A DNA stretch of 64,000 nt from positions 41,571,366-41,635,365 of the forward strand of contig CAIIXF020000001.1 in the NCBI GenBank assembly GCA_903813345.2, in the 5' to 3' direction. The position numbers and the translations under genes were made by a program. Below the pieces are notes generated by a model that saw nothing but the letters and a program-made list of their open reading frames with translations, was not told where the DNA came from and did not search any database. This stretch comes from Owenia fusiformis (taxonomy: Eukaryota > Annelida > Polychaeta > Sabellida > Oweniidae). Positions 2-30,600 of the stretch are shown here, one piece after another (position 1 is the stretch's first letter; every line of letters begins with the position of its first letter).

Positions 2-1486
2 CTTGGAAACAGGCCACCAACGAGACCTCCTTCTGACCGTAGAAGCCCGTCTTCAAGCTATTTACACAACTCGGAATACTCGCTTCCGAGAGAGCAGTCC
101 CCCCGGAGCAGTAAGAAGGCCGTAGAGACGGGAAAACGAGGTAACGATTCGCACCGAAATGACACCAAATTTCGTGACTACAACTATTCCGCCACACACC
201 ACGTGGACGTAAGTAGGTCAACTTTTCGAAATCGTTCAAGATCTCCCGTTTCTCAGCTTAGAAGCCCTTCTAGATTGTCTCACCACTCCTACTCTCACAC
301 TAATAGACCCTCTGATAGTTCGCCGAGTAGGATTTCCGGGACTTCACGTCAGGGAACTCAGAATTCACGATCCATTATCAACAATTTTAGTTCCAAAATT
401 TCACAATCTCAAAATTCAGATTCTAAACCTCGTATTTTGGATTCTGATGACAACGAGCCGTCTAAATCTAAGTCCTCTGAAGAAGAAACGGTCTTGTTAG
501 TTCGTTCCTTATGGGATTCAACCATATCAGCCTTAGAAATTGACCAAGTCAACAGCTCCACTAATTCTAAAGAATCTTTGACTAGGGTAGCTCTCCAGAA
601 AGTTGATGAATCTTCAGTCACTAAAGCTTCATTACCTTGTCCCCCAGTGTTCCATCAGTTGGTGCAGAATATCAATAATCAGATCTCATCTGCCACTTCC
701 GGTTTCAACACAAAGGGAAAACTCTTCAGAATCAAATCTTCAAATTATAGATTAGCCAAGGGAGATGATTCAGTCGTACGGCCCCTCAAACTCAATAATT
801 CACTTGGAAACTTAGTCCCAAATGATAAAACCTTCAGTGATTTCTTCAAGAATGCTGATACTAAAACTCAACTCTCCAATAAAAACTGGAAGGGTCTCGA
901 AGAGAACTTGAGGGCTGTCCTTCAACCTTTGGTGTACTCAGAGTGGTATATAGGTTCTGTTTCAAAGTTAGTTACCCAACTCACAGCACACTTATCCAAC
1001 AACACGGATCCACTAGTTACCCAGTTGTTAGATTCCATGGGCGATTTACTCCTTAGGGGTTCGACAGCCTCTGTTACTGCTACTGAAGGTATTCTCAAGA
1101 CTCTCACCAACTCAGCATTACTTCAACGTGATCTGATTCAAGAACAAGTACCAACACGCTTCCGCGAATCTATGAGGGTACTACCAGTTGAGCATACATC
1201 TACCACTTTGTATCCAGAGTCACAACTTAAAGATTTGGTTGACTCAGCCTCCTCAAATCTGACAAACCAAGCACTAGTTACCTTGGCCCAGTCCAGTTCT
1301 AGATCTAGTAAAGACAAAGACAGGTCCCAACGCCAATCCAGGTCTGACTACAGGAAGAAATCTTCTAACAAAGATTGGTCCAAATCACAAGACAAACCCA
1401 AGTCAGATTTTCGTGATTCCAAGAAGAAATACGACAATAAAGGTGGTAAGCACTTCAACAAAGACAACAGATTCTCCAAGAAGTGA
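2..1486 (+). CDS. DIRS gag-like ORF1, left end outside window
   Basis: A long open frame that runs to the left window edge, so its true start is not seen. The product is rich in Ser, Arg and Lys at both ends: RS-type stretches near the start, and a basic tail with many K, S and D residues ending in NRFSKK. The middle third is a more ordinary globular sequence with several predicted helices. No zinc knuckle is visible, which is usual for DIRS ORF1. It lies just upstream of the reverse transcriptase region in the same orientation. The role as nucleocapsid-like RNA-binding protein is inferred from position and composition, not from a recognised domain. Confidence 0.6.
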   Translation, partial: LGNRPPTRPPSDRRSPSSSYLHNSEYSLPREQSPRSSKKAVETGKRGNDSHRNDTKFRDYNYSATHHVDVSRSTFRNRSRSPVSQLRSPSRLSHHSYSHTNRPSDSSPSRISGTSRQGTQNSRSIINNFSSKISQSQNSDSKPRILDSDDNEPSKSKSSEEETVLLVRSLWDSTISALEIDQVNSSTNSKESLTRVALQKVDESSVTKASLPCPPVFHQLVQNINNQISSATSGFNTKGKLFRIKSSNYRLAKGDDSVVRPLKLNNSLGNLVPNDKTFSDFFKNADTKTQLSNKNWKGLEENLRAVLQPLVYSEWYIGSVSKLVTQLTAHLSNNTDPLVTQLLDSMGDLLLRGSTASVTATEGILKTLTNSALLQRDLIQEQVPTRFRESMRVLPVEHTSTTLYPESQLKDLVDSASSNLTNQALVTLAQSSSRSSKDKDRSQRQSRSDYRKKSSNKDWSKSQDKPKSDFRDSKKKYDNKGGKHFNKDNRFSKK

Positions 1487-1499
1487 CCATTCTATGATC

Positions 1500-4474
1500 C
1501 CAATCTTCACAATTCCTCCATTTCCAGGACCTGTAGGGGGAAGATTGATGTTTTTCCTTCCGAATTGGAAGCTGTTAACGGAAGATCCGTTTATACTGAA
1601 GATGATCCAGGTAGGATACATCCCACAGATGAATTCAACTGTGACGTTATGCACCGAACCAAACCAGTTCGAGTCTTCAACATCGAGCAAAGCAGCTCGT
1701 TTCAGCAGAGTGGTAGAGGACCTTCTGCAAAAGAATGCTGTAGAAGAAGTTCTAAACAGACATTCCCCAGGGTTTTACAGCAATCTATTCTTGGTCAAGA
1801 AGAAGAATGGAGAAGACAGACCCGTCATCAATTTGAGAACTTTAAATCAAGTCTTAATAGTTCCCAAATTCAAAATGGAAACAGTACAGCAGTACATGAC
1901 CTCCTTCCAACAAGGCGAATGGGCAGTATCCTTGGACCTTCGGGATGCTTATCTTCATATAATGATGAAAGAGAACTTCCGGAAGTATCTCCGTTTTGTC
2001 GTCAACGGAAAAATTCTGCAATTTCGAGTCCTGCCTTTCGGTCTGGCAACAGCACCGATGATATTCACCAAGATCCTGGAACCCCTAGCCTCGTTCTTCC
2101 ACAAGCGCGGGATAAAACTCCACCGGTATTTAGACGATTGGTTAATCCGAGGAGCATCGCCACAGGAAGTCTCAGATCACCTATGGATTGTGATGACGGT
2201 GACGGAAAACCTTGGCTTCATCATCAATCACAAGAATTCGCAGTTGATTCCGTTGCAGATCTTCGACTATGTAGGTGTACGGTGGGACCTTCATCTAGGG
2301 ATGTCCTATCCCCCCAGGACAGAATAGACAAAATTCTACACCTAACAGACTGGTTCCTCACAGAAAGTCGAGCAACAGCCAAGCAGTGGATGTCTCTTCT
2401 GGGATTACTGGCATCAGCAGAGAAACAAATCCCACTGGGGAGATTACACATGAGGTTCCTCCAACAATGCCTGTCTCAGAATTGGTCTCAACTCAGAGAT
2501 CCATTGGACAAGATGATAACAGTAGATTGTACTGCAAGATTGGACCTGTTGTGGTGGAATCAAGGCCAGCATCTGGAGAAAGGGATGACTTTAGCTCCAT
2601 TTTCACCAGAAGTGACAATATTCACAGATGCTTCAACAGCGATGTGGGGTGCTCACATGGATCGGAACATATCGAAAGAGTGCTGTGGAAACTGGTCCCA
2701 ATCAGAATCCAACAACCACATAAACTGGCTGGAACTAAAAGCCATTCAGAAAGCCCTTCAACACTTTCAGACTCACCTCCAAGGAAAGATGGTGTTAATT
2801 TGTGCAGACAACACAACTGCGACAACCTACCTCAACAAACAAGGGGGAACACAGTCAGCAAAACTGACAGAGTTATCTCGACAGATATGGTTATGGGCCG
2901 ATTTACATCAAGTCGCTTCGCGCAAGACATGTGCCAGGTCGACTGAATCGAAGAGCAGATCTGTTGAGCCGGGGAAACCAGATAGTGGCGACAGAATGGT
3001 CCTTACATCCAGCAGTTGTCAAACAGATGTTCAAGATATGGGGAACTCCAAATCTAGACATGATGGCGACATGCTACAACAACCAACTACCAGTGTATGT
3101 CTCACCAATACAAGATCAAGCAGCTTGGGCAACAGACGCTCTATCCCTAAGCTGGCAAAATCTTCATCTGTACATCTATCCCCCCACACCAGTGATAGGA
3201 TTAGTTCTACAAAAGATAAAGGATCACGACTGTTTAGCTCTAGCAATCCTTCCAAAATGGCAGAATCAGCCGTGGTTCCCAGAACTATTGGATCTTCTAG
3301 TGGACTATCCAAGGGAAATCCCCCCATGGGAGAAACTTCTCAAAATGCCAAGAAGTCAGATCTTCCATCAAAATCCAGAACTTTTCCATCTTCACGCTTG
3401 CAAACTCTCACGAAATCTCTCACTCAGAAGGGTTTTTCAACACAAGTGTCAAAAAGAATCGCATCAGATGCTAGAAGACCTTCCACCAACAGAGTCTATG
3501 ATGCCAAATGGAAGAAGTTCTCTATTTGGTGTTCTGAGAGGAATCTGGATCCCTGCACAGTCTCTGTTCCAGAAATAGCTGACTTCTTACTTTATCTTCA
3601 TTCAGTAAAGAAGTTAACAGTGAGTACCATTGAAGGTTATAGAACTGTCATCAATCAAGTCCTTCAACAATCAAGTGGCACATCACTCTCGTCGACTCAA
3701 GAAATCTCTGATCTGATCCATTCTTTCAAATTAGAAGATGCTCAGCCTAAAGATCTGATGCCTAAGTGGGATCTAGTGTTTGTACTACACGAGTTAACCA
3801 AACCTCCCTTCGAACCAATGTCGACAGCTGATCTCAAACACGTATCGTGGAAGACACTTTTCCTTCTACTGTTAGCTTCAGGGAAAAGATGTTCTGACAT
3901 CCATGCCATAGACATTAGGCGTATACAATGGACTAGAAACAACTTGGAAGCGGTACTTTTCCCTTTTGTTGGTTTCCTGCCGAAATCATTGAATTGCGCA
4001 GAAGGACAGTCCAGATTCCAACCAATCACCATCAAGGCTCTAGCTAATTTCGTTGGAAATGAAACGCCAGATAAATTCTTATGTCCTGTGAGGGCCCTAA
4101 GATATTATCTTCAAGCCACAGTTCCTATCAGAGGATCCAGAAATAGACTTTTCATCCCCTTCAAGAAAGGATGCAGTTCTGATGTACACCCTAACACTCT
4201 CTCTAGTTGGGTGAAACAACTGTTGAACTATGTCTACAAGAATGCCTCAGAAGAAAGCAAGTTACAAGGGAAGATACGACCACACGAGACAAGAGCCATA
4301 TCTTCCTCACTAGCTCTACAAGCCAATGCCTCATTAACAGCACTCTTCAAGACCTGTTCATGGGCATCCCACAACACCTTCACAAGTTACTACCTCAGAG
4401 ATGTGACAGTAATGGAGAAAGGCATGCACAAGCTGGGCCCGGTGGTACTAGCTGGCACTCTCTGCAACTTTTAG
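1500..4474 (+). CDS. DIRS pol region: RT, RNase H, tyrosine recombinase
   Basis: Reverse transcriptase signatures include LVKKKNGEDRPVINLRTLN, SLDLRDAYLHI, LPFGLATAP and YLDDWLIR. RNase H shows FTDAS, a WLELKA segment and CADNTTA. The C-terminal part is a tyrosine recombinase of about 330 residues: an N-terminal SAM-like DNA-binding region (NRVYDAKWKKFSIWC), then a catalytic domain with GKRCSDIHAI, RPHETRAISSS (the H-x-x-R box) and SYYLRDVTV (the likely nucleophile tyrosine region). Such recombinases integrate a circular double-stranded DNA intermediate. Frames overlap and the copy looks broken; the domains are given only as approximate parts of the element. Confidence 0.8.
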
Positions 4475-9600: not shown

Positions 9601-12600
9601 GTATACATTCAAATATTATACAAATATTTTACCTTTTTGATTGAGGTGAATAATGCATCTTTCATCCTTGCATTTCTTAAACCTTAAATTAAGCTTAATT
9701 CCTGGGAACTGTGAATATCGAGCATATCAACCACTCCAAGGAATTTCTGATGTTTAATTTGCATGAACAATGCATAATCTTTAATTCTGGCATTTGAACA
9801 TGACCTATTGTATTTCCGCAAAGTGTAAATCACTGTTAGTCAAAACATTTTTCACACCATTTGATTTTAATTCAATAAGATGTTCAATGAGTGTAACGTT
9901 TTTTGGCAAAAATCTATATACTATAACCTCAAAACTGTTGGAGATACACTTCAATATTAAATCTTTTCTTTTTTGTTTCCAAAGTATGCTGCTTTCTCCA
10001 TGTTGTTTTCCTGGCTCAGTTTTTCTCAATAGACTGTTAAAAGACAATTTTAACTATTTCGTTCAAACTATCTCAGTATTCTGACAGAGTGCAAACAGAA
10101 TTTTAATGGGATTGGTTGTATTTAAATATATTTTCAACAGGCAGGGAACAGGACCCCATTGCTCTTATGCTGGGGAGACTCCTGTTCAGTTTTACAAAGG
10201 GACTTTAACTAGTAGACAGTTTAAATGGATTAAATTTAATATGTCTTTTATTTATATATTTATTGCTAAAAAATTTCTGTGTTATCTCTTTTTTCTTGAA
10301 ACAGTGTTGTTTGATTCTTTATTGTTTGGCAAATTTAATGAGTTTGAAAGTCAAAGTCCTATTTTTCAATACATTTAATTGTGATTTTGTTCATTTCTGC
10401 CTTGTAAATCTTAAATAACATCTGTGTTGATCAGATCGCTGCAATTTTTTTCTCAGATAAGTTTATGAAACTAACGGAAGCATTTGTTTGCATTTTGAAA
10501 AGATTACTTTCAACATCATCGTCTTTTATTATTGCTGAACGTGAGTGCTATTCACTTGAGTTCAGTGTTAATAAAGAGGTATACCAATACCTGTTGGCAC
10601 ATTTTTATTAATCTCATAAGCACAGTACTACTAAACTAAATAAATCAGTACAAGTGAACTACCTCATTGTTTAAAATCCACAGCATGTACTATCTGTGCA
10701 AGGTCCTCCAAAGCATTTCATTAGATTAGGAGGGATATGATAAATCATAATAGGACTAACCAAAACATATTAAAGCACAATGATTATGGGACTACATGCA
10801 TGAGAGATAAGCAATTATGGATGTCCTTTATTTATTTGATACAAGTTTGATATCCCCAGTTTTTGACACTGGGCTTCATGCCCTCATTGGCAAGGTTTGA
10901 TAATCTTGAAATTTTGAATTGATACTGTGAAAAGCAAATTTTTATAGACTTTAAGAGTGTTATGACTCAAGGGAACAGACACAATCATAAAAAAACCATA
11001 ACAGTTATTTACATACATAATTAATTATTAACCCTGTACTGCCTGAACCTATGACCCTTCTTGCACTATGACATTGAATATTCATTTTACTTACCGTTGA
11101 CCTAACATCTTAAACATTCATAAGGCACTGGCCATTTACAATAAAATATATAAGGAACGGGAACTGGTCTCTAGGGAGTTCTCGAGGTAGCCAGGCAGTA
11201 CAGGGATCTAATCTGTATATTGATATCACATTAATTTACAACGAAATAAAGAGATAGAAATTATTTATTGATTTAAATCCTGAGTTGGTTGATAAGTATT
11301 TCGAGTAGGAAACAAGATTGTAATCACTAAAAAGTGATTACAACATTGGTGCCGTTGCCAGCCGAAACCTAAGGTTTAATATTTTCTATATCACGACAAA
11401 TGAAATTGAAAGTACAAAATTAATCAAGACTTTCAATCTTCAAATTCAAATAAATTAACAAACAGATAAAAATTAGATCCCTCGTGCATGTACAGACGAA
11501 TTAACGGGAGATTGAATAGACAACATCCAGACATGGCGGATGAAATGAATGATCAATTATTAGCGCGCCTTCAGGCGCTGGAAATGAATCAGGAACAAGG
11601 ACCTCGCGCAGCTTCGGTTACGCGACCAATGATTTTTTCACACTCTTCTTCAGTAAGTAACCCACGCTCGTGGATTGACAAATATCAGCTTTATGCTCAA
11701 ACACAACGATGGGACGCACAGGGCACGTGCGACTACCTGAAAATGTTTTTGAGTGGCATTGCTGAGATTTGGTTTGACAATTTAGAGGAAGAAACAAAAC
11801 AAGATTGGGACGCCCTACGCGCGGCCTTTGTTCAAAAATTTATAGAATCCACTCCAAAGTGGTCTCTCGAAAGCAAACTATTGCAACGCGTGCATCAAGC
11901 TGGAGAACCCATTGACGCATATCTTAATGATGTGTCTCTCCAATGTTCGCGTCTTGAAATAGGTGACGGAGAACACATACGCATATTAATTCGCGGCCTG
12001 TCACCTAAAATGAGAAGTCATGTACTGAGTCACTCTCCCGTTACCGTCGCCGATGTGGAACGCCTTGCAAAACTTCATGAAAGTATCTCATCAGAGGACA
12101 GAGTGCCCAAATCTATTAATGCCATCGTCCCTGACAACCAATTGAAAACCCTAATGGACAAAATGGAAGAACAACGTGGAATGTTGGAGGAAATGTCCGA
12201 CAGGATAAGGAGGAACGAAAGGAGACCTCCACGGGACCTGTACAATGGCCGCACGAGTACAGGTAGACCCTACTGCACAAATTGTCATCAGGTAGGTCAT
12301 CTTAACGTAGTATGTCGAAGGCCAACATTTGATCCTAATCCCAATGGTCGAGGTAGACGATTTTCTCCTAGACCATCACAAAGCAATAACTCCTTCAGAG
12401 GTCGCCAAATGCAATCAGATCGTCCATGGTATCAAGATAATAGACGGGTCCACTTTCAAGGTCAAAATACCTTTCAAAATCAAAATAATCAGAGATCCTT
12501 CCCACAAGATCGTCGAAATGATAGATACCCCGCTCCTCGATCTCCACAATCCTCAGGGCCCAGCAGACCGAATCATTTAAACTAATAACTCCTGCAGATA

Positions 12601-15600
12601 CCGAGGTCCATGCAGGAGCTGATTTTCAAAACCCTCAACATATGTATGCTATTTCTGGGTTACACTCATATGATGATCTGGATGTACAAGACTCAAACTC
12701 GTGTTCGAGCGAGACATTGTCTTTAGAGAATTTGAATGATGCTCAATCATTTGGGGATCAAAGTAGGTCTTGCCCCCGGGCAACCCCCCCATTGAGCATG
12801 AATCCTTACTGTGCCACAATATCGTCCATTGGCGATGTGGTTGATGAACTTGGCATGACCATCGCTGAAACATGTTCGGGTGTCAGCAACGGCTCTCATA
12901 GTTCTGATAAACGGTCGGCATTCGCAATGACTCCTAACGGAGCTGGGGACCAAAGTAGGCTTCGCCCCCGGGCAGCCACCCCATTCAATCTCGTATGCAA
13001 ATCATCATCTGACCAATGTAAACCAGGGGAGCTTCCTCCATCTGAAAAAGAACAAGAAAATGAAATTAACAATTCTGACGACGTCACATTCGACGAATAT
13101 ATACCATCGGAAAATCGGGCCCCAACATATGAATACCCACCTCCTGAAACTATTCCCCAGAATAATCATGCAGATCGGCTAGAACCCACAGTTAATCTAC
13201 TCAAGGCCCCATACCCCAACCATGTACAATCAGACCACAACTATGCATGCCAAACCAATGACAACTTTGTTCTTTTCAACGAGGATTGTGCAGAGGAAAC
13301 GATCGAAAATGCAAACAATAACCACATAAATCACAATATTAACAACGAACATGAAACAATATCTCATTCCAATCAACATTCATTCTCTGTCAATATGGAA
13401 CCTATCTTCCACGATAATATAATACGGGTCAAACTATTGGGTCAACATTGCTACGCCTTACTTGACAGTGGCGCAACAATAAGTGGAATTAATAAAGATT
13501 GGTTCGAAAAATTCCCCTGGGCTCAAAACAACCTTCAAAAATCTGATTGTGGGGGAGTGGAAATAGCAAACGGAACTTCCATGAAAATCACAGGCCTCAT
13601 TAAACTACCCATCATAATAGGTCAAACAACGACAGCAGTTGAATTCCACATAATTGACAATTTAGCTCACCCTGTGATTCTGGGTACCAACTTTTTAACG
13701 GAACACCAAGCAGTAGTAGATTTCTGTAAAAACACTTTAAAATACTCCGTTCCCCGTTCCACTGACATCATTGCCGGAACAAAAGTGACCATACCCGCTA
13801 GATCGGAAGTAGTCCTAACTCTTAACCTCAAGAGAAAAATGCCTGATAATGTACTAGGCATATGCTCACAGCCAGAAAGTGCCGCAAAAAGACCCCTGCT
13901 AATGGCAATTTCATTATCAAAAACATCAAATCAAATGGTCCAAACCAGGCTAGTAAATGCCACTACGGTGGACCTCACAATACAAAACAATGAGAGAATA
14001 GGAAAGTTTGAGTGCATTGATTCCAAGGCTAAAATCATTCCCCTTGATCTTTATACCTCTAAGGGGGAAAGGAAATATCAAACCGGTACTTCAGGTCACA
14101 CTGAAAATAAACAAACAAACCCTGATTTGCAATATGGTAACACTCAATTCATTAATCAACAATACGATGGTTTAAGTGCAAGACCTTTGGAGATAAATGC
14201 CATAAACTCCTTGAACCCTGAGGCCGTACCAACAAAGGGAACATCCGAGACTCTAACAGACAGGTCAAACTGGTCTATTCACTCAGAATTAGATTTCAAA
14301 GATTCAATACTTTCTGAAAATCAAAAATTGGAACTTACCTCCGTTTTAGAAAAGAATGTGGAAGCATTCTCCTCGCCAGGAAATGAATTGGGATTCACGG
14401 ATTTAATTGAACATGAAATCAATTTGAAACCCAATGCGAAGATTTTTAGACAGAGACCATATCCATGCTCCCCTGCAAAAAGAGCCCTTATAACAACTGA
14501 GGTAAATAAACTATTAGACATGGGAGTAGTCCAACCCAGTAAATCAGCATGGAGCGCCCCAATAGTCCTGATCAAAAAGGGTGAAAAGGTTAGATTATGT
14601 GTTGATTGGAGGGGCCTCAATTCAATGACTCAATTCGACGCGTACAGAATGCCAGATTTACAAGAATTACTTGATAGTATGGCCCAAACAAAAGGCCGTT
14701 ACTGGTCGTGCCTCGATATGTTTAAAGCATACTTCCAAGTAAAACTCGCCCCTCAATCTAGGGAACTTACAGCTTTCTCGACTCACGATGGGCTATTCGA
14801 ATTTACACGTTGTGGACAAGGGCTTGTGGGGTCACCTAGTACATTTGTTCGTTTGATGGACCAATTGTTCAGGGGCTTACAATATCAGAATCTATATATC
14901 TACCTAGATGACCTCATCCTGTTCTCCCCCACATGGGATCATCATCTTGCCTTAATTAACGAAACACTGTCCAGGATTAAAAAGGCAGGCCTAAAAATAT
15001 CACTATCAAAATGTCAATGGGGTAAGGACGAAGTACTCTATCTAGGGCACATTCTATCTGAACATGGCTATAAACCAGATCCAGCCAAATGCAAAATGGT
15101 ACGTGATTTCCCTACCCCTAATTCAGTGAAATCAGTAAGAATGTTTCTTGGACTGTCCGGATATTATCGGAGATTCCTCAAAGATTACTCGAGAATTTCA
15201 CGGCCTCTCACAGAACTGACCAAGAAAGATATCGAGTTCGTCTGGGGACCAGAACAACAACAAGCCTTAGACACACTCAAGGCAGGTATTTGTGAACATG
15301 CCATGCTACTCTACCCTGATTTTTCTCTTCCTTTCATCCTGGAAACAGATGCATGTAACAAGGGTCTAGGTGCGTGCCTAACTCAAGAAATCGATGGAAA
15401 GGAGAAAGCCATTTCGTTCAGTGGACGAGCTTTGACTCCCACAGAAGCAAAATACGCCACCATTGACCTAGAACTACTCGCCATTGTGTACGGAGTCAAG
15501 AAATTCAGACACTACCTAGAGGTATCCGAATTCATCATCAGAACAGATCACGCTCCCTTGAAATTTCTGATCAATACAAAGCAATTGAGCGACTCCAAAA

Positions 15601-18600
15601 GAGCGAGATGGATATTGTTTTTGTCACATTTTAGATACACATTAGAGGTCAGGAGCGGTAAATTAAATGCGAATGCAGATTTTGCCTCCAGAGTAGAACA
15701 CACTCCAGTGCAGGATTCAGATCTACAGCAGGAACACCACGAGGAGATACGTAGAATGGTAATGCCAGAATGTCAGCCACAAATTCACGCTGCGATAGGG
15801 AAAACCCCACTATCCCTAGGTAATTTACCCTTCCAGCCTCCCGGCCCAATATCAAAATTGCAGCCAGAAGATTTGAAATTCTTCGATCCACTAGCTAGGT
15901 ACACAGACCAACAGGAAACGTCAACACAAGCAAACACACCCACGCTAGAAGACCTGTGGGACACGTACGAAACCGACCCCGACTCAACAAAACAGTATCA
16001 TACCCAAAGTCACTCAGCCAAACAAACTACGGATGTTGATATGGACCAAACAACTTCAGAAGTATTGAACCCCATACCGAGCGATATTATCATGGAAACC
16101 ACAGACACAGAGGCCACAGCAAACCCCGTTCACAAAATTACTACGGATAGGCCTACGCAAAGAACGACAAATCTGAATAACCATTCGACGGCTTCGACAA
16201 GTGAAACCGCTAACGAACCGGGAACTCCACCCGCGCCTGACGAACAGCAAGATGAAATGGCAAATATCCAGGAAACTGACACGATAAATAGCCAAGCAGA
16301 CCCGTACACCAATACACCCGAGATGGAGGAATTAAGGCAGCTACAACTCACCGACCCTTTCTGCAGCCCATTAATTCAATATTTACATACAAATGTACTA
16401 CCAGATAACAACAGCGAGGCCAGAAAATTGTTGTTACAGGCAGATAGCTTCCTTATGATTGACAACGTCCTGTATCACAAACATTACGACCATCACTCCC
16501 ACGCCATGATAAATAGGCTAGTTATACCCAATTGTCTAGTTGACACCATTCTCTTCGCATCCCATGATCAGATTCTTAGCGGACATCTAGGCATCCTTAA
16601 AACAAAGGCAAGGGTATTACAAAAGTATTACTGGCCGAAACAATCACAAGATGTTGAAAATTGGGTGAAATCATGCGTACCATGTAATTCACGCAGAATT
16701 CGGAGAAAACACGAACAACCAATTCAGCCTATTCCAGCGCCATCGGCAGTCTGGGAAATGATTAGTATTGACACATTAGGGCCCCTGACAATAACACATG
16801 ACAAAAACAGATTCATTATATGTATCTCTGATCATTTATCCAAATACTCCATAGCACTAGCAACCCCAGATCAACAGGCTGCAACAGTGGCGACATTACT
16901 CTTTCACCGAGTAATATGTATTTTTGGCTGCCCAGAGGTCATAATATCCGACAACGGGACTAATTACGTGAGTCAACTCGTCCAAGAGCTATGCAAAATG
17001 TTCCTCATTGATAAAAGACAAACTCTACCGTATAACCCCCGTGCAAACGGCCTCATTGAAGCAGGGAACAAAATCCTCGCAAAAATGCTCTCCATATATG
17101 TGTCACAACACCACAAAGATTGGGACGTCTATCTACCTTCCGTTGTGTTTGCCTACAATGCATCGGTTCACGCCTCCACCCAGATCATACCATCGATGCT
17201 TGTATTTGGTAGGGTACCAAAACTCCCTATCGACACCCAATACAAAATACCCTCAGACGCCCCCAGAGACATACAAGATCATCTCAAAAGCACCCTCAGC
17301 CAAGTGGCAGAATGCGAACATATGGCCACAAAAATACTACAAAGCCAGAAGGAGAAAATGAAAGCAGACCATGACCGCCGGACAGAACATAAGTTCATTA
17401 AATTCCAAGTAGGCGATTGTGTGTACTTAAAGGTCCCTCCCAAAAATAAGGCACTGTCACACAAACTAAACTTCACACATCAAGGTCCATTCACAATAGT
17501 GCAAATAACAAACAATGAGCTAAATGCTACATTACGCAGACTAAGCAATGGTACACTATACCCCAAATCTGTACATGTGGGCAGGCTCAGTAAAGCGGAG
17601 TACAGATGGCCCCGCCCAGAACCGCCAGATAATTACGAACCACATACAGAAACCCCCGGGCCAGACACAGTTGCCCATAATCTCGAAGATGCACAACCCC
17701 CCGCTCAGACAGACAAATATCCAATCGGGAATACCAAAGCGACCTCCAAGCCGAAGACCGACAATCAAAAAGAGACATCTCGGAAACTCACAAAGAACGA
17801 CTTGCAGGGAACACCAATTCCTACACCAATACCTACACCTCAGGACATCGACAGTGAGAGTGACGAGGATACAGAAGACGAATTCTACGAGATCGCCGAC
17901 ATATTAAAGTCAAGGAAACTCAAGAATGGCACTAAACAATATTTTGTCAGCTGGAAGAACTATGATCCTTCCCACAACAGCTGGGTCGATTTCAACGATC
18001 TCTCAGAAGACATGAAGTTATGGGCTTTACAAGAATTTCAAGATCCCAAGAAAAAAAGGCAAACCAAGAAAAAATACAAACGCCGACACTAAATTAAAAT
18101 TATAACGTTGACCTTAAAATGTTATATTCTCCCTCAATCTAAGACCAATATCATCAAAGCTGTACCAATCGCAAACCAAAGTATTAACATATTATGCACG
18201 CGCGCATACCATCCAACACAATTCACATTCTCCATTCTATCTTATCCCCATAACATTCACATACAAATATTTGAATGTAATAGAATCAAAATTAATACTT
18301 ATAAGAAACACCCCTGTTATCAAGTCGCAAGTCACGTTAGCGATAATCAACCTGATATTGTGGAATATTACCTAATGATACCTATAAACCAACAAATATT
18401 ATTCGGGTCACAATACATTTCGGATCTGCACGGATTCAACAACACTTAGGTAAGAACTAATCTCGTACTTCATTACTATTTAACCAAGACCGCAATTCAG
18501 ATAATTCACACTCAAAGCGGCTTGTTAAATCCATATTTAATACCAAATTATTTAATCTATATGAATACTTAAAGAGGGCAATATATATTTCAAGTTTACT

Positions 18601-21600
18601 ATTAAGCCTCTAGAATACAATTGATTAGCAAAAATAAGTTCTTCCTAATAAGCAATTTGTATCATGCCTGGAATCACTCTCATCTTTGGAAACCAGGGTT
18701 CTATACCTTTGACTGGTTTACAATATAATTTCATTAGAAGATCAAACCTTCTCGCTGATACCTATGAACATATATGCAAAGAGAAATTGGCGGAAGCCAC
18801 CATCATAGTCCCAGATCACATCAGATTAAGCGAATTTCACCTTTTTCGGACCAGATACAAATCCTACACTGAAAATGGTTTTGTCAGATATAACCTTGGC
18901 ATTATTCAAAGGCTACAAAAAGAATGTAGAGACATAACAGATTTCTTTGAATTTAGAGATATACCTTCCACGCTTCAGTCAAAATGTCTCGTAACAATCC
19001 AAAACCAAGTGACATTCCCTGATATTAGTAATCTACCCCTTCCAATATCCCTCCAACAACGGTTGAAATTCGCGGATTTTTAAATTTATTTCTCATCTCA
19101 ACATTCAAAAATCCACATGCAACAATAAGCTTCTTTTCTATTCGAAAAAAAATGGCTTAAAATATACAAACAAAGAAAAAAATTGATAATGGACTCATTT
19201 TAACTAGGGAATATTTAGAACGCTCCACAAGTAACTCATGGGTCGAAGATAAACGGTATTAAAAGGCCCATATAGATACAAATAAACTTGAAAATGACTC
19301 TCACACTTCAGTAAAGACGCATCGGTACTCGTACATCACTTTGTTCTTGAACAAGGACCTACTTCACCTAGCCATAATTGCATGTAATCTCGACGCAATC
19401 AAACTCATCTTTCTATTACCTAGTTCAAACTATTTCTAGTCAAACGGCTGCTCAACTGTCCCTCAAAAATAATTCAATATTGACATGAAACAAAACAAAA
19501 TGAAAACAAAAAGAAAAAAAAAAAGAAAGAAAATAGAATGAGTAAATGATAAGGAGAAGAACCTCTTTATATACAGATATATTTAGAATTTTAATAAACG
19601 ATATACCATTAACATATCCCTGTTCGCGGGTCTAAAAAGTGAATAATGCGCATATAAAATGTAATAGGTGGCCACCTTCATATCATATGGATGCTTCATA
19701 TAATTATCTACTTTCCTTCAAAAGGACAGATTCACTCTCCGCGCGGAGAATTATAATAAACAATTATTTAAACCCAAGCATCCTAAGAGAAACGAGGTTA
19801 AAACAAAACAGCAAACAAAAGAGACCGGCCATTAGATATACAGGGCCCGATATTTAAAATCTACTTTATTGCCCAAGCTAAAAACCTGCGCGAAAAATCA
19901 CTGCGTCCCTATCGACCCATTGTGTCAAATATTTAAGGAATAAAATACGAACATGCATTACACACACACACACACACACACACAATTGAGCAGCCTACAC
20001 GATATTGAAAATCCCAGGCCCACAAGGTCAAAAAGAAGAAACTCTATAATAAACAAAAAAAGCCTAAAATCTAACCTCATGACGCAACGCCAGCATCACG
20101 TGACCACAGTTCATGCAAGACTCATATATTTATTGCCCAACCCAAGCCACTTCAACATTGCTCCTCGGGATCACCACCAAGACACATCTAAGCCACTAAC
20201 ACATTAATTCTTTGAATCAACACCAAGACACGTCACGCACCATGGACACAGCAATGGACAAATTGGTAAGTCTCTGTTTAATTTTACTTACTACTACAAG
20301 TACTCATTGCCTAGACCTACCACCCTCTATGCAAATTAGCCAAGACACTTCTATGCCTACTAGTCTTTTAAATAGATTGAATTTTGGAGTTATAATTAAG
20401 CGACAAGGACTTATGACACCGTCAAACGACGATTATTGGCAACATAGTTTCGGGCTCAAAAGATTTTCGCTTCCAAATATACTACGAAGAACTCCTAAAG
20501 TCAGATGCAATACTCTTTTTCACAAAGAATTCTATAATGACTGCGAACAAATAGCATCCCTTTTAATTGATTATGCACCGCTCATCCAACATACGGCGGA
20601 CAAAATTCATTCCTGTACTTTGGATATCGATAATCTACTCCCAAAAACTCACAAAGTCACTCTTAACACTAATCGACGACATCGTCGAGGATTATTAAAC
20701 TTCGGCAGTGAAATACTTTCAGCGCTAATTGGAACACCTTCACGCAAAGAAATATCAAATGTTTGGAGACATCTCCAAGAAATTGAAAAGGTCATTAACT
20801 CTACTTCTGAAAACACGGTACAATACAGACAACACCTCTCCTCATACATGATCACCAATAATAAGCGACTAGATAACTTGAACCATGCAACTGCCAATAA
20901 CCACGCAGCATTTCAAAACATTTATAATACCATAACAAATTTAACTTCAGTTCTAGCCTCGCAGGGCCGCTACTATGATAAACTCTCATTGGCCTTACAA
21001 ATAAACTCTGAATTACTAAAAATGATCCTTAGATTCTGTGTGCTTCAACTTTCAGCCCTCCAGCAACACGAAATTGAATGTAATCAACATCTAAGTGCAA
21101 TATCCCAATTAGTACAAGGTAGTCTGCCACCCCATTTAATTTCTCCCTCAACACTGAAATTGGCCCTGTCAGATATCCAATCTACCCTTCGCTCCTCACA
21201 TCCCAATTTTCGAATATCCTACTTGGATCCCCATTATTACTACAAAAATAGTAACCCCACCTTTCTGGTCACCGAGAATACAATAACAATTTCGATTAGA
21301 GTCGCCATTTCAAGCTCCGATTATCTCTTCAATCTATATCAGATGCACCACATGCATATGCCAATTCCGCTCGATTTAAGTAATAAACGGACCCCAAACC
21401 ACTCCACGTCAATTTCAGACCTTTCCCCTTATTTCGCCATATCTCATGATTTAGATTTCTACATAGAACTAAATTTGCAACAATTTTCTGACTGCACCGG
21501 ATCTCACCTACTACATTGTACAACCGTCTTCAATCTAAAACAAATTTCTACTCAGCCCTCGTGTAACTCAGCACTATTCTTTAATGATCCCATTCAAATA

Positions 21601-24600
21601 AATAAACTATGCTCGTTTATGTACCATATTAACGCCCCACAATCAGATCAAATAATCACGCTAACGCCAACTAAATCGCTTATACATTCTAATGATAAAT
21701 TCTGGACCATTAGATGTGATGATTCAATGCCGAAAAGGGTTCCAGCGTGCAGGGGGGTTTGTATTATAACCAGGAAATGCCATTGCTCCTTGGAAGGTCA
21801 AAATTTCATCTTACCCAAAACCCTCTCAAGCTGCAATCACACCTCGAAGTCATTCGTTTCAAGGGCACACCACTTCAATTTAGCCTTTCTACAGACTTTC
21901 GACTACAATTTAACCTCTTTAAAGAAACTGTCAGCATCATCCCACTTGACTTCAGATCTATCAGTACAACTACCCAACCTTACTTTCTACTCTGCGGACT
22001 GGAATAAGGTCTTAATGACTTCCAAAACAACTTCATTTAAAATGTCACGACTAACCGAAGCCCTTAAAAATACGGATGTACCATTTTTGTCACCTATCGA
22101 TCAAGTACAACATGTCCAAACGGACTTATCAGGATTAAGGGAACCACTCAGTTGGCTATCAGACAAATCACTATCATCCATTACCCTGATCTCAATCATC
22201 TTGGCTCTAGTATCGTTTGTAATGTCATCTTATTTATTCTGTCGTATAGTATGTTGTGTTGCACTCATACCGCAACCAGCCAAGGCGGCCACATTGTTCC
22301 TACCCACGGATCACCCAGTATTCGCACCAACAGTTCCCCTCCCACAGCAAGCAGCCTTCCCTTCTAATATTCTGTCTATTTTAAGCTTTATACTATCCTT
22401 GTATATAACATACAAACTCTTCAAAAAGCTGACTGGTATCATAAGGGCCTTCCGTAGATACTTCTGCCTCAGGAATATCGCCTCATGTGAACTGAAATTA
22501 TTGATGATGTGCCCCACCAACTATTGTATTGTATCGGTGACCAACATTCCACTGGATTACGTAAGTAACATCAAAAGCTCTACTGGAGGACCCGTAGACT
22601 GTAGCGTAAGTACACATGTACTCTGGCCCCACCTTGATATAGATTGGGCGGACATGACTATTCAAACTCTTGATCCAAATCTTGCAATCCAACTTCCTAC
22701 TTCAATTCGAGTCCCACTCACTACGATATCCAGTCTCAACCAGGTCCTGAAACAAAAGCCAATATTCAGAATTATTATCAAGATTGATGGCCAACACTTA
22801 TACGTACCGCACTTATAATTGTAAAGTAGACATTTACATATATTTAGGGGACAAACATCACAAAATAAGCATATAGAAAGGACCTGCGTTCCGACAAAAT
22901 TTGATATCTACAACATAATGCCGAAACAACACATTTCATGCCCCGTTTCAAGTGAACATATTTATATATCAAACTAAAACAAAGTCGTTCACATGGTTTA
23001 TTCTCTTTACAGTGCACAATACTGAATGCTGCTTTGCCCGAGGAAGTCTGGGACGAGCTCGCCCAGCTACAATCCCAAGACGAAAATCAGACATCGCAAG
23101 TTGAGTTGCCCGAGCTGTGGCCAGCACCTTCAACATCAGATAACCCTCCCATCCTCGAGGCCTTTACGACAGTTAACCAGGGAGCCACTCAGTGGGCCTC
23201 AACATCAAATGGCCCTCCTATCCTTCACCAAGAGGCGATGGGAGATGATCTAAAACTAACACAGCAGAACGACCAAGAAGCGGCGGTACAACTTCTTGAG
23301 CTGGGGTCAGTTACCTCACTAGACCCATTGGACGAGCTGATGAGGGACCTGGACTCGTCCCTGGAGGCCACAAACCGTATACCAATCGATGGGGCGTGGG
23401 ATAGTACCCCCACTATCTCCATCCCCTTCGGAACCCCAGGGACGAGAGTAAATGCAATGTGCACTTTGTGCACAAACCCCACAATTCGTCAACGGGTAAT
23501 AACCGACGCGGCCCCAACCCCTGGACAAACGCAGACGGCGGTACTCTTCGCAGTACACCCTGGTACCAACTACCAGGCACTGTACTGTGAGGACTGCCGG
23601 TACATCACCATGTTTTCTATTTTCCCGTCTGCATAAATTCACTTAACTTCACAAACCCTACAGTCATATGGCCCAATCTCCCAAAAAGTAATCAGTTCAA
23701 CATCGTCATAGAAATCATGCATAATCACGTCAATGAATTTTTCAAGTCACCCCTCAAAATTAAAATTAATCATCCCAATTTGCATGGCATTACACAGCTT
23801 ATACCATTCCAGTTTTCATGCATAAAACCTATCAAATCCAGTTTAATGATGCCCCTTACTTCCTGAGATACATTCGCTAAATCGGTCATAAATAGCTACG
23901 AATATTACCGAGGGCCATTTTGACCTGTACTTCCTGATGTTTACGTTCTACTTACGACTCACTTTCTTCTTTGACATTAATCAGACAAATAGGGCCTCCT
24001 CTGGAAATTGTTCGCCGCTCTTTCAGGAACACAACTCTTTATATTCATTCTAGCTTCATTTGTACTTCAATGCAACGTATAGTTGATCCTTCGCTACTTT
24101 ACACTGTTCTTACTGCTTAAATTAAATCAAATAGGATAAATTCATCTGACCTATGTACTGTTACACCCACCAATTCGCGTTGTTATCACCTTTACAATGT
24201 GCTAAACTTATACCGCACTCGATAAGTACAACTTATCGCGTGTCTCTTCAAAACTTACACAGTCCAGAGCCGAAATTATGCACTGTTAGAAAGTTCCGAC
24301 CCGAACTATTCTGTTCATAAGTATTTGTTACAATGTGTCTGACACACCCCATACATCGTGATGTTCATCTCCCGTATATTTTCCAGGATCAATTCCGATA
24401 TTCTTATTTTTCAATGGCTTATGTTGGTCCCCTGTGGGATTCCCAAGTATCAAATTGTTACACTAAAGCGATTTTATATTGACCATTCTAGATACTTTTA
24501 TTCCGTTCTTCCTGACCCGTTATCTCACTTCTCATTTGCTGGCTCTGGACAAATTTGCTTTACATTAGATTCCATAATTTGCCTTACTGGAAACAAGACT

Positions 24601-27600
24601 CAGGTCAAACGCTCCATAATTTACCGGTTCGAATATCGAAATTTCTTCAACCATATTACGTTATAAAATAGTGCCACTGCAGTTCATGCTTTCGGAACCA
24701 ACAAGGGGCAATATATATACACCTGACTCTTGCTTCATTTTTTGTGTCGGGCAGTTGCAGGCCCCACGGCAAATTATTATCTGGTAATACTGTACCACAC
24801 GCCCATTATTGCAAAATGGGATTACAAATGAATCAACTATTAGTTCGGCTTGGTCTTCCCACCACGTCTGATTATTTTATAATTACAGCCAATCAGTCAA
24901 CGGGGCCATACGCGGTGGGAACACCATATTCGTACTTTAGTTCATGCTTTGAGATTCAGCTCAGAGCCATAATGTAAGTTAACTTAAGCATACGAACTAT
25001 ATTTACATATTATTGTACATACAGAACTAACATATATATTACGAGTTTTAATGCAACAGGAAACGAGTTGAAACTCATATTTTCACTACTTAACGTACTA
25101 TATTTTCACTTCATGCTCAGTTTATGTACCTTATGTCTCCACAATCATGAGTTTATCAGAATGCACGACAACCATAGCTTATTATATTTCAAGCATTCTG
25201 GGCTTCTAGTTATGAACACCAGTACCCTTAACAGAAATTGTTTATTCTCTTTTAGTGATTCTCGTGATTCTCCTATCGTTGAATTTGTTTGCCGTTTGTG
25301 CATACTGTTAATCTAAATTGTCACTCCATTCGACAGCAGCAAGTTATCATATAATACGTTAGGCGGTATTAAATCTAATCTAACCTCATGCCATCTCTTA
25401 AGGGTTCCATATGTGAACTGCACGTAAGTCAGTCTATTCTGAAATTATTCGACGTGGTCGTATCATCATTTACATTATGCCACGTGATGCAACTTAGGAG
25501 CATGCTATTATTCCACTTCTTCAGTATCATGGTCCAATCTATGAGTAGCCAATTATCACTTGGTAGCCTATTACCCTCTTAAACACCAACTACAACGTTT
25601 GAAATCACCGAATGTTCAGGGCACCGGGTGTGCACCATACAGACATTGTGCTCAGTGATGCAATATATTCACGGCCATTACCCTCAAACTCCGGCTTGCA
25701 ATCAGGACACATAACGCCTTCAGGAAGGAGCGATTTCCGGGCTAGCACGACAGACCATCATCGTGCATGAACGTGCCTTTTCCTGAACTCCAACCGAACT
25801 CTATAAACGTTATCTTCTACAATTTACGCATGATATGCGTGATGAACGACTCGACAAATTTATTGTGCAGGACACGGTTGTAAGAACTTATATATATCAA
25901 CGACACTACGAATTTATTGTGCAGGGCACGGTCGTAAGAACTATTATATTTATATACGACACTACAAATTTATTGTGCAGGGCACGGCTGTAAGAACTAC
26001 TATATATATCAATGTACTCAGTCCAGAATACGCCTAAGGATCAATCCCGGATCAATTGCGTTTATCGTATGTACAGCCCTCGACCACCACGCTGTACGAC
26101 ACGCAGGAGTCTCTCAGTGATATCCCATAATGAACATTATATCCAGGCGTATATCCATGAACAATACTAGGACAATTCGTAATGTCCAGTGTGTATAACC
26201 AACGATCATCCAGTTATACGCCACACAGCCGTCCGACAACTTACATCCTCTGCCACAACTAGTTATACGGAACTCTGACACTTACGTCGTTGTGCATTCC
26301 GAGCTCGACGCTATCCATCTGGCGAGTGACTGTCGTCCTATCCCCATTACCACACCGTTCCGGTCCAAATACTGTGTCAGCTAGAACTTTACTCATTTGC
26401 CATCATGGGTAACATATACGCAGACCACTATCCCTAGTACTGGCTATCAATTATTCCAGAACTGCTCAATGGACTATTCTAATCTGCAATTATTTCTGTT
26501 GCATCACGGGGGCTAGTTTTCAATAATAGTATTCACATACTTTGCTATTGCTCAATAACAGTGTTCACATACTTTACTGTTGCTCAATGATAGAGTTCAC
26601 ATACTTTACTATTGTTCAATAACAGTGTTCACATACTTTACTGTTACTCAATAATAGAGTTCACATACTTTACTGTTATTCAATAATAGTGTTCACATAC
26701 TTTACTGTTGCTCAATTACAGTGTTCACATACTTTACTGTTATCTAATAATAGTGTTCACATACTTTACTGTTGCTCAATAATAGAGTTCGCATACTTTA
26801 CTAATGCTCAATGATAGTGTTCACACATTTTACTGTTGCTATATATATATATATATATATCCATTGTATTTTATTTGTATATTACCAGAGGTACATGCTG
26901 TCTAATATTCCGTAAGGTTATACCATTGAATATCCCACGGGGCTTAGCTTATATAAAGATGGCTGCACCCGAGCCCAGTATTTTCTTCTGAATCCAAACC
27001 TATTAACACGCCAACTTTGTCTGGAAATTTGTTCCAATCATCTTGGCCCATGGTTTATTCAATGGAATAAAAAATAACAACTTATTCGCAAGATGAATAA
27101 GCTGTAATTATGGAATGTCTCTAAAACTATACATCCATTTCATATATATATACTATTACCGGTCACATTCCATTTAATACCATAGGTGTCCACCTCTCTT
27201 GGGTCATCTCATGCGCTCCTTGCACACGGGGCCGTGTGCCACCAACGGGGGGGCGTATGTTATGACTCAAGGGAACAGACACAATCATAAAAAAACCATA
27301 ACAGTTATTTACATACATAATTAATTATTAACCCTGTACTGCCTGAACCTATGACCCTTCTTGCACTATGACATTGAATATTCATTTTACTTACCGTTGA
27401 CCTAACATCTTAAACATTCATAAGGCACTGGCCATTTACAATAAAATATATAAGGAACGGGAACTGGTCTCTAGGGAGTTCTCGAGGTAGCCAGGCAGTA
27501 CAGGGATCTAATCTGTATATTGATATCACATTAATTTACAACGAAATAAAGAGATAGAAATTATTTATTGATTTAAATCCTGAGTTGGTTGATAAGTATT

Positions 27601-30600
27601 TCGAGTAGGAAACAAGATTGTAATCACTAAAAAGTGATTACAACAAGAGGAAATTTCCATACAGTGTATGATGATTGAATGTTATAAATTTTGATTTTGA
27701 TATTCAAGAGGATTTTTGTTAGGGAGAAAAAATGGTTGAACAGATTATAGAATGAGCAAAGGAATGTTCTTTGATAGAAAAGATTCCAATGTTTTATAGC
27801 AGCCCCTGGATGGCCATGAATAAAAACTGCATGTATGGAGGTCAACTTAACTTTCAGGAAATGTCTCTCTCTATTGAAAATTCAGGAAACTCATATTTTG
27901 TACTATTACAGCCATTGTTTTCTAACTGATCAGATATCAATTGATTCCATTGTAGGAATTTTTGTATGCTTTTTATTAATCTCTGAGTCGTCTAATGAAT
28001 TTTAAATAAAAAGTGCAATGTACATGTATTCTCAAATAACCAAAAACCCTTGTCAAGTAGGTAGTTTATTTAACAATCATCATGTGATAGTTAAAACGTC
28101 CCTGAGTTACTTAGATTGATTGACTATAAATAGCCTGCTATTAAGCTTGTTAAGTAAGATTTTTAAGCACACAATGACAAAAAAATTTCCACCAAACTAA
28201 ACTAATTCAATTTGGAGATCGACATTTTGTTCATGAATTGTTGTTACTCATGTATAAAAATCATCTCATATGTAAATAAATACAGTACTTTTAACAATGG
28301 ATTTTAATGGATTAGCCCTGTTGAATGGAATGCGTGCCAATAAAACAATCATAATGAATGAATTGATATTTGTTGTAAATTGTAAATCCTTTATCTAAAG
28401 ATTATCATTTTCAATAAATTAGAGAGTAACTTGTCTCAATTTCAATATTTGATACTGCGTTATCATGTAAGTAATTTTCTGCCCTTTATTGCAATAAAAA
28501 AATTGATAACAACTTCTCAATTGATATCTATCTACGGTAGATGCTCCAAAACAAATCAAATTGAAAAGATCTGGTGATATATTTTGTACAATCTATATAA
28601 TGCAGAGCTCTCACCAGAATTTATCCATGTTACTAGGTCTAAAATTCTAGTTACCACAGTTCTGACCAAAGGTAATTGGAATGTTCCAATTTTCTTTGTG
28701 CAAGCCAGTTTTTAAAATCTCATTTAATTAAACCCTTGGCTCAAGCACCCAGAGTGACAGATATTATCAGTCTCAGAATTTCTCATTATTTGACAAAGGA
28801 CGATTCTCGGTTTGGAGAACGAAGTTCATCAATCTAAATGAGCATTATCCCTGCTTCAGACAAATTTGATTTTTTTACATAATATAGATTTGAATGTCTT
28901 CTTTTGAATAGTCATAATTTAATTTGGGTAATATTTCTAGATTTTTCGCAAAAAAATATTAGCGCAGTACACTGATGAACTTCTTTCCCCAAATCGAGAC
29001 TTGTATTTTATTGAGTCGGTCTATTTGAGCATTATCCCTGCTTCAGACCAATTTGTTATTTTTACATCTTGTAGATTTAAATGTCCTCTTTTGAATATTC
29101 ATAGTTTAATTTGGGTAATATTTCTATATTTTTCATGAAAAATTTTTTAGCCCAGGAGGCTGTTCTCCAAACCGAGAATCGTCCTTTTGTTTATTTCACA
29201 CAAAATATATATAAAAATGTGTAATTTTTCTATGTTCGATAGAATTATCAAAATGAATACGAAACATTCATAAACATTCACGAAGCATATTAAGATAGAC
29301 AAGAATAAGTAAAAATGAAAATTGCTCTGGTATCCAAGAAGTAAAAGGCAGAGGAGATCATTGAACTGCATCATTGGATCTTAAAGGGAAAACAGGTGGT
29401 TTTCAGGCAGACCAGGCTTACCCAGGCACCTAGGCATCATGGACCTGTTGCACTTTTATTTTCCTAAACACCAAATGAAAATATGAAAATATATAAATTA
29501 CAGGTGGCATACTCCTATAAAAAGCCTGGAAACGAGCAACCACCCTGTCAGGGTATGACATTAACACCGGTCTAGGGTTTCCTCTAATCTGGACCAGCTG
29601 ATTTTTCAGCATGTGTAGGGAAATAACATTGGTCTATAAGAACTTGATTTCAAAAAGGTTGTCTTATTCATTCGATTTTTGTTCTGATATCATGAAATTG
29701 TGCCATATTTGAAAACAAAATATCATTAAAGCAGCCTTTGTCCATATATCTGTTTTCTCTACGTCCTGCTTCAATTGCTTCATTTTCCTTTATGACAATG
29801 TTTACATTTTAATTTCAGAGGTGGTCCCTGAACATTATTGGAGAGATTTGGCAGAAGAGAGAAGAGCAGCATTGAATGATTCACTGATTGAGAATGAACA
29901 GGTAAACAAGGAATATGAACTTATTTCTACAGAATTGATTTTCTTTAGTGGGTAGGTGGTAAACAGTTGTTTTGTTAGCTAAACTATTCGAAAATATTAT
30001 CTGGAGTACCTTGTTTTATTAAAAAAATGTTTGCGTTTCCAAAAAGTAAGTATTATTGAAAAAAATCAGATGGGTGATGTTGCAGTTGACAACATGCAGA
30101 ATTTATCAGAAGAAACATTTCTAATAAACGTTTCTAATAAACTTATAACTTGGAGTGGATAACATAGAAATCTGGAATGTGATTGGAGTAATGAATACAA
30201 GTCATTTCTGAACAGAGAACAGATAACAGAGATCTGCTGTAGCTATAGATTTAATGTATAGAACTGAACCCATCTGTTGTATCATGCCTCCCACAAATAC
30301 TTATATCAATTAGAACTAGGTAACCCTAATAGCCACCTGTGTTCCTCAATTCCATTCTCACAGCATCATCACAGCAGAAAAATTGCAGAATTTACAAAAT
30401 ATTGAAGCATAGCTGAGCAATCTTACTTCAAAATAGGATATAACCTAAAATGGTAAAAAATTCTGATTTTCCATGTAGAATTTTGCCAAGATTTGCTCTT
30501 TTCATGCAGAAAACAGGAATCAGTGAATGGTAATTGTTAATTTTGGAATAATGTTCAGCACTACGCTGTCCTTGAGGATTTTTTTTATATCATTGGAATG

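Follow-up and report, generated by a model that had tools for sequence, protein, structure and literature searches.

A young Ty3-type provirus of the annelid Owenia fusiformis with a chromodomain, an env gene and a candidate set of accessory genes

Accessory genes that counter host restriction are commonly associated with the complex retroviruses of vertebrates. Capture of env, giant size and spliced regulators are already known among Ty3-type (Metaviridae) long terminal repeat (LTR) elements: several env gains in the family have been reviewed (PMC5962544), the Burro elements of planarians exceed 30 kb and include homology to env as well as domains linked to ubiquitination and apoptosis (PMC6431247), and Cer1 of Caenorhabditis elegans makes a regulator, CERV, from a spliced mRNA, which is needed for export of the genomic RNA (PMC10309623). 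Here, we describe a Ty3-type provirus of 16,688 bp, on the plus strand at 10958..27645 of a 64,000-nucleotide stretch of the Owenia fusiformis genome (GenBank assembly GCA_903813345.2, contig CAIIXF020000001.1, forward-strand positions 41,571,366 to 41,635,365; hereafter the window). On balance, we favor reading it as a young endogenous provirus from a Metaviridae lineage that bears a chromodomain and env and is laid out like a complex retrovirus; its structure, copies and conservation are observed directly, and the roles of its accessory genes are predicted. The accessory gene set is the new part; the chromodomain, the SOCS-box-like module and the splice architecture go beyond the first-pass annotation of the window. 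The provirus is composed as follows (ORF, open reading frame).

10954..10957, no strand: left target-site duplication, AGAG
10958..11345, plus strand: 5′ LTR, 388/388 identical to the 3′ LTR, with TG...CA ends
11346..11363, plus strand: putative primer-binding site, a TTGG-starting stretch directly adjoining the 5′ LTR
11488..12585, plus strand: gag, 365 residues (PF03732, Retrotrans_gag, E 2.5e-10; CCHC knuckle)
12642..18092, plus strand: pol, 1816 residues (protease, reverse transcriptase, RNase H, integrase and C-terminal chromodomain, from Pfam)
18664..19083, plus strand: accessory ORF, 139 residues, with SOCS-box-like C-terminus (second family 52-53% identical; motif counts)
20242..22818, plus strand: env, 858 residues from ATG (furin-type site, fusion-peptide-like stretch, two transmembrane-like stretches, six N-glycosylation sequons)
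20242..20265, plus strand: putative first coding exon of the post-env gene, common with the env start, followed by donor GTAAGT at 20266
23013..23636, plus strand: putative second exon of the post-env gene, acidic, with two CxxC pairs; TTTATTCTCTTTACAG acceptor directly upstream
23637..27257, plus strand: 3′ region without a long conserved ORF, ~3.6 kb, with two tandem arrays
27258..27645, plus strand: 3′ LTR, 388 bp, identical to the 5′ LTR
27646..27649, no strand: right target-site duplication, AGAG

LTRs, a target-site duplication, gag and the order protease–reverse transcriptase (RT)–RNase H–integrase are all present, and the element is a member of the Metaviridae. In pol, Pfam recognizes the protease, RVT_1 (E 2.1e-30), RT_RNaseH (E 1e-33), H2C2 (E 2.7e-18) and the integrase family rve (E 4.2e-07, with bits under the Pfam cutoff), and the end of the protein is a chromodomain (PF00385, Chromo, E 1e-08, above the Pfam cutoff). 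The best match of the RT–RNase H region in the PDB is Ty3 (E 6.3e-109). All five plus-strand frames are open: gag, pol, the 139-residue ORF, env and the ORF that ends at 23636. The first-pass annotation had proposed a very large element with identical LTRs, an intact 4-bp target duplication, open main frames, accessory ORFs between pol and env and after env, and a long 3′ non-coding region, and these proposals hold: the length is as measured above, divergence of several percent between the LTRs was not seen, AGAG is found on both sides, gag, pol and env are open, and both accessory ORFs are present and under purifying selection in comparison with a diverged copy (on contig C308, below). The tandem arrays of the 3′ region consist of three 56-bp units (25845-26009) and ten 32-bp units (26520-26840), and recur in the five other copies for which the 3′ end was compared, with ~3 and 8-10 units.

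In its LTR-gag-pol-env order, its 4-bp duplication and an Env with a furin-type site and a fusion-peptide-like stretch, the provirus resembles the insect errantiviruses such as gypsy; it differs from them in its C-terminal chromodomain, its roughly twofold length and its two accessory genes, and its Env is without a Pfam match. With the chromoviruses it has in common a chromodomain at the integrase C-terminus, and from them it differs in carrying env and accessory genes and in falling outside the main chromodomain clade in both free trees, although forcing it inside was not rejected (approximately unbiased test, p =.182). In these trees (RT, 124 rows; RT plus integrase, 71 of 123 rows having both parts, kept after thinning above 70% identity), the provirus forms a long branch without supported close kin. 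The best 120 of 1061 pol matches entered the comparison, with no named insect errantivirus among them, and the best RT match among those 120 is ~44% identical. The proposal of an undescribed lineage is upheld by that distance, by a single public Env relative (22% identity, motif layout similar by eye) and by the lack of any relative of the 139-residue ORF at E up to 10 (172 candidates), within a public protein search that requires shared exact 5-residue words (for Env, the 7,990 candidates with most shared words were scored).

Among other Ty3-type elements, two candidates were set aside. Troyka, which is reported to lack env, has a 3-bp target-site duplication and CG...CG termini (PMC12440569), whereas the provirus has a 4-bp duplication and TG...CA ends; Burro is likewise a giant Ty3-type element with env homology and ubiquitin-linked domains, but is larger and carries env in frame between gag and pol (PMC6431247), whereas env of the provirus is a separate ORF after pol. 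The bdelloid LTR elements TelKA, Vesta and Juno also have env-like and extra ORFs, but most of their extra ORFs are GDSL esterase/lipase or DEDDy exonuclease (PMC5408684). With Cer1 the provirus has in common a Ty3-type organization with a regulator from spliced mRNA (predicted in the provirus); outside Caenorhabditis, the Cer1 ORF is reported to lack obvious homologs, and a SOCS-box-like gene is not described in the available part of that report (PMC10309623).

The genome was searched for further copies in one assembly (498 Mb, 525 contigs), in which the window copy, on a 62-Mb contig, is C1. At least 28 LTR matches were obtained, 20 of them near full length. Seven loci have two or three LTRs (C1, C2a, C2b, C3, C8, C10 and C11); two further LTRs lie on the short contig C308, C4 has one LTR and a partial one at a distance of 6 kb, apparently solo LTRs are found on C12 and C8, and the remainder are fragments. 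Six copies, that of the window among them, have two direct LTRs, and in all six the pair is without substitution (2,377 positions in all; the C2b pair has a one-base gap). LTR variants distinguish the copies from one another, but no substitution separates the members of a pair. Target duplications are AGAG (C1), CAAG (C2b), GTAG (C11), TATG (C3) and CAGC (C8). At C10, the copy and an inverted 200-bp LTR piece are both enclosed by ATAG; the piece follows the 3′ LTR inside the target duplication (C10:27511463-27512066). For zero changes in one 388-bp pair, the 95% upper age is ~0.8-3.9 My (assumed rates of 5e-9 to 1e-9). The view of the element as whole and recent is thus confirmed by the search for other copies, with six further loci bearing two or three LTRs and LTR pairs free of substitutions.

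Divergence from the window in env is 0.16-1.21% among the copies, 1.41% for a partial C10 piece and 2.42% for C308. As copies differ in env yet have LTR pairs without substitutions, several diverged source elements, not one, moved recently. Not all copies are intact: env is interrupted by a one-base deletion in C10 and by a stop in C308, and more than half of it is missing from C8. C2a (C2:10556046-10573239) has three LTRs (−,+,−) in inverted order, the sequences at an internal junction overlapping by 4 bp, and is likely an autointegration product. Matches to the LTR, to env and to both extra ORFs are present at other places in the genome, so the observation is not due to chance.

The 139-residue ORF has 21 matches in its own genome, including seven at 90-100% identity, the C2b copy in two pieces, and decayed pieces. 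A second family, ~52-53% identical to it, comprises six open 143-residue frames, and five of the seven second-family places compared are open. The proportions of synonymous (pS) and non-synonymous (pN) differences were taken by direct counts, synonymous sites being saturated between the two families: against C308, pS is.118 and pN.044 (.122 and.043 in a separate uncorrected count), with no stop, and against the second-family member L051, to which the window ORF aligns without gaps, pS is.935 (saturated) and pN.282. The C-terminal 42 residues contain a BC box (for Elongin BC) and a Cul5 box. The strict BC plus Cul5 pattern is present in the window, in the window-type copies compared except C308, and at six of the seven second-family places; it was found in none of 121 public pol/env relatives (180,294 residues) and nowhere else among 1,137 six-frame stretches. 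Of 200,000 shuffles, none contained a near-identical pattern and 41 matched a relaxed one; relaxation also brought in one unrelated stretch (L035). The shuffle and background patterns differ slightly.

In an alignment of the 42-residue C-termini, SOCS_box was the sole Pfam family matched, by all four sequences (best E 0.012). The corresponding profile matched five chains in the PDB, including the SOCS box of SOCS4, ungapped over 35 residues (E 0.45), as well as PCMTD1 (E 1.4), which we take to be Cul5-binding, and two WD-repeat chains. The top chain (2.7e-06), a repeat chain, owes its score to a repeated short stretch and was taken as chance, as was a match of the family profile to the ribosomal protein eS10 (E 0.28). 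A scan of IMG/VR with the alignment of the 139-residue family returned 115 stretches that matched the pattern, none of them a relative. Because both boxes are kept in two families, we consider SOCS-box function probable for this ORF, though each score alone is weak. The closest functional parallel would be lentiviral Vif, which has a BC box, an LPx4L Cul5 motif and an Hx5Cx17-18Cx3-5H zinc motif (PMC2597746), and with which the provirus has in common a SOCS-box-like gene between pol and env. The window ORF contains an LPx4L match, and the zinc motif is absent. A related ORF is found at C2:35212300-35221300 (L059, L051, L058), where direct repeats at least 1,101 bp long and 99.3% identical enclose a SOCS-box-like ORF; in the stretches read beside it, no plus-strand ORF of at least 70 residues matches gag, pol or env of the window, and one ORF resembles a gag remnant by eye. 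This locus is apparently a non-autonomous LTR element carrying the SOCS-box-like gene.

The ORF after env encodes a protein of ~207 residues with two CxxC pairs, the first 140 residues of which contain 24 D/E and 3 K/R. It is probably made by splicing the env start to the 3′ exon: the GTAAGT donor lies 24 bases into env, a strong acceptor ends at 23012, both are in phase 0, and both are kept in eight of eight copies examined, window included (C308 and the C2a donor were matched only with an altered search string). For comparison, 15.9 kb of plus-strand sequence contain 7 GTRAGT sites and 26 acceptors by a loose pattern. An element on C244 (Env 32% and Gag 41% identical) has the same donor/acceptor layout, phase 0 by eye, and its post-env ORF also ends with two CxxC pairs. 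All 11 matches of the post-env ORF in its own genome are 67-100% identical, nine covering nearly all of it, and no distant relative was found there. Against C308 there are 39 synonymous and 31 non-synonymous differences (uncorrected,.239 and.060 per site), with two insertions of three bases each and no stop; indels near the beginning of the frame in C2b and C10 lie upstream of the acceptor. From these features the protein may be a nuclear regulator; transactivation is a guess from its composition and from the sister elements described below. A regulator that would take the env start codon by splicing is a likeness to deltaretroviral Tax and betaretroviral Rem. From complex retroviruses in general the provirus differs in that no sequence relation was found, the Vif HCCH zinc motif is absent, and the element belongs to Metaviridae and not Retroviridae.

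Env has a basic furin-type site followed by a fusion-peptide-like stretch, a layout that we take to resemble baculovirus F-type Env, along with the sequons and transmembrane-like stretches listed above, and is predicted to be a class I type fusion protein. Purifying selection on env is evident against C308 (uncorrected,.072 synonymous and.010 non-synonymous). The genome contains 52 env matches, five of which, window included, are full length, open and 99-100% identical; further env lineages among the 52 comprise several that are open at ~22-25% identity and the broken C244 env at 32%. An IMG/VR scan with Env returned 57 stretches that matched the pattern, none of them a relative.

Sister elements in the same genome carry extra genes of other kinds. 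In the lineage formed by C4, C5, C7, C11b and the C8 cluster, a chromodomain was recognized (E 9.1e-09, C4 copy tested), and the C4 copy has a cysteine-rich post-env ORF of ~110 residues, RING-like by eye but not by Pfam (E.72); similar ORFs adjoin several envs of that lineage. The C8 cluster itself (C8:13.88-14.15 Mb; L035-L037) is a dense accumulation of env-bearing elements and fragments, with some env frames ~5 kb apart, and is possibly a graveyard or piRNA source. A second, C6-type lineage, for which Pfam gave no chromodomain match, has a Maf-type bZIP gene between pol and env (bZIP_Maf, E 1.9e-11), present near env at four of four C6-type places, once with a stop, and a 53% relative adjoins another env on C4. 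Two post-env ORFs of the C6-type element have C2H2-like stretches (best zf-C2H2 E.0075, below cutoffs). Their positions are:

L047:6410-6808 (C6:18658409-18658807): Maf-type bZIP; also at C8:16912400, C6:18634358, C8:17621187 and C4:1191094
L050:891-1334 and 1351-1944: C2H2-like post-env ORFs of the bZIP-bearing element, one with an acidic stretch

Under the reading that we favor, full-length RNA would yield Gag-Pol and a spliced RNA would yield Env, which as a class I type fusion protein could permit cell-to-cell passage. A further spliced RNA would join the env start to the acidic, zinc-type 3′ exon, producing a nuclear regulator that may act as a transactivator or RNA-export factor, perhaps on the LTR or the 3′ repeats. 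Through its SOCS-box-like end, the 139-residue protein would bring a host antiviral protein to Elongin BC-Cullin5 and so have it destroyed, and the chromodomain may steer integration.

Several observations weigh against this account. For the 139-residue protein, the BC plus Cul5 patterns were composed after the sequence was seen, and C308 and the second-family member L054 have partly lost the Cul5-box pattern. The alignment of four C-termini combined the window ORF with three members of the second family that are nearly identical to each other; C308 and L054 were excluded for the partial loss, and L053 and two broken places were excluded as well. The SOCS_box scores listed are 13-14 bits against a cutoff of 23.5, and five whole second-family proteins and C308 gave no SOCS_box match in Pfam. 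A full-length, 7-member profile of the family found no SOCS protein in the PDB, and an AlphaFold model of the ORF was unusable (predicted local distance difference test score, pLDDT, 35.5). In the C2b copy the frame of this ORF is broken, and part of gag is missing. For the post-env ORF, constraint among close copies is weak or none (synonymous/non-synonymous differences: C2a 3/7, C2b 3/9, C11 5/6, C3 5/6, C8 4/8, C10 4/6), C11 has a one-base deletion near its end, and the window and C244 proteins align only at E 0.13. Finally, no significant Pfam family was found for this Env or three relatives, and its AlphaFold model was also unusable (pLDDT 29.5).

Some of these points could be read as the marks of an ordinary env-bearing Ty3-type element in which the extra ORFs are chance or passive remnants and the size reflects non-coding cargo. 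The 3′ region is indeed long and repetitive, giant Ty3-type elements with cargo exist (PMC6431247), neither extra ORF has a significant Pfam match, and constraint on the post-env ORF is slight among the close copies. In comparison with C308, however, non-synonymous rates are well below synonymous rates in both extra ORFs and the post-env indels are both of three bases, and a second family, 52-53% identical and with saturated synonymous sites, keeps the 139-residue ORF open; we therefore consider this explanation quite improbable. That the locus is a domesticated host gene or an assembly artefact, and not a mobile provirus, is hardly credible: collapse during assembly can yield identical LTRs, and a single assembly was compared, but the copies lie on several contigs with differing 4-bp duplications, and their LTRs vary from copy to copy while lacking substitutions inside pairs.

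The accessory genes may instead be real but have other roles, the 139-residue protein not being a Cul5 adaptor and the post-env protein being an RNA-export factor of the Rev/CERV type, not a transactivator. The Cer1 precedent of a spliced regulator needed for genomic RNA export (PMC10309623) speaks for such a role, acidity does not discriminate between the regulator roles, and SOCS_box falls below its Pfam cutoff. We judge this alternative unlikely, if well worth keeping in view: the BC box and Cul5 box are both present, in register and kept across two families, a transcription regulator would be consistent with the CxxC pairs and the acidic stretch, and the bZIP_Maf and C2H2-like ORFs described above are carried by another env-bearing lineage.

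The first-pass annotation had placed the element inside the geminin gene. What we take to be geminin-like coiled-coil exons, recognized without a family model, are located downstream at ~29.8 and ~32.05 kb on the strand of the provirus, which therefore appears to be intronic in a geminin-like gene and to have the gene's orientation; an upstream exon at ~9.1-9.5 kb, presumably of the same gene, is a weaker guess. Elsewhere in the window, ORFs at 1278-4474 resemble a DIRS-type element (RT and a tyrosine-recombinase-like stretch, by eye), and a 54-bp tandem array of ~25 units, with several frames open, occupies 56191-57509.

In the literature, among the matches listed (titles and abstract openings, with few subscription papers covered), no SOCS-box or bZIP gene in a Ty3-type element was encountered, nor was a SOCS-box-like gene in the Vif position, an exon common with the env start or a bZIP_Maf gene in such elements. 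It is quite possible, though somewhat less likely than not, that Metaviridae of an invertebrate-type host independently evolved a complex-retrovirus toolkit, with a Vif-like SOCS-box protein, a Tax/Rem-like regulator spliced from the env start, elsewhere a captured Maf-type bZIP and zinc-finger-like ORFs, and a non-autonomous element that keeps the SOCS-box-like gene as its main conserved ORF. If the SOCS-box gene and the env-spliced regulator are real, the design arose more than once. Because the copies are young and nearly identical, expression and activity are directly testable. If the proposed role is true, Elongin BC-Cullin5 would be turned against a host restriction factor; the host would then possess an unknown antiviral factor that pays to degrade, and the SOCS-box protein could serve as a bait in the search for unknown host antiviral proteins.

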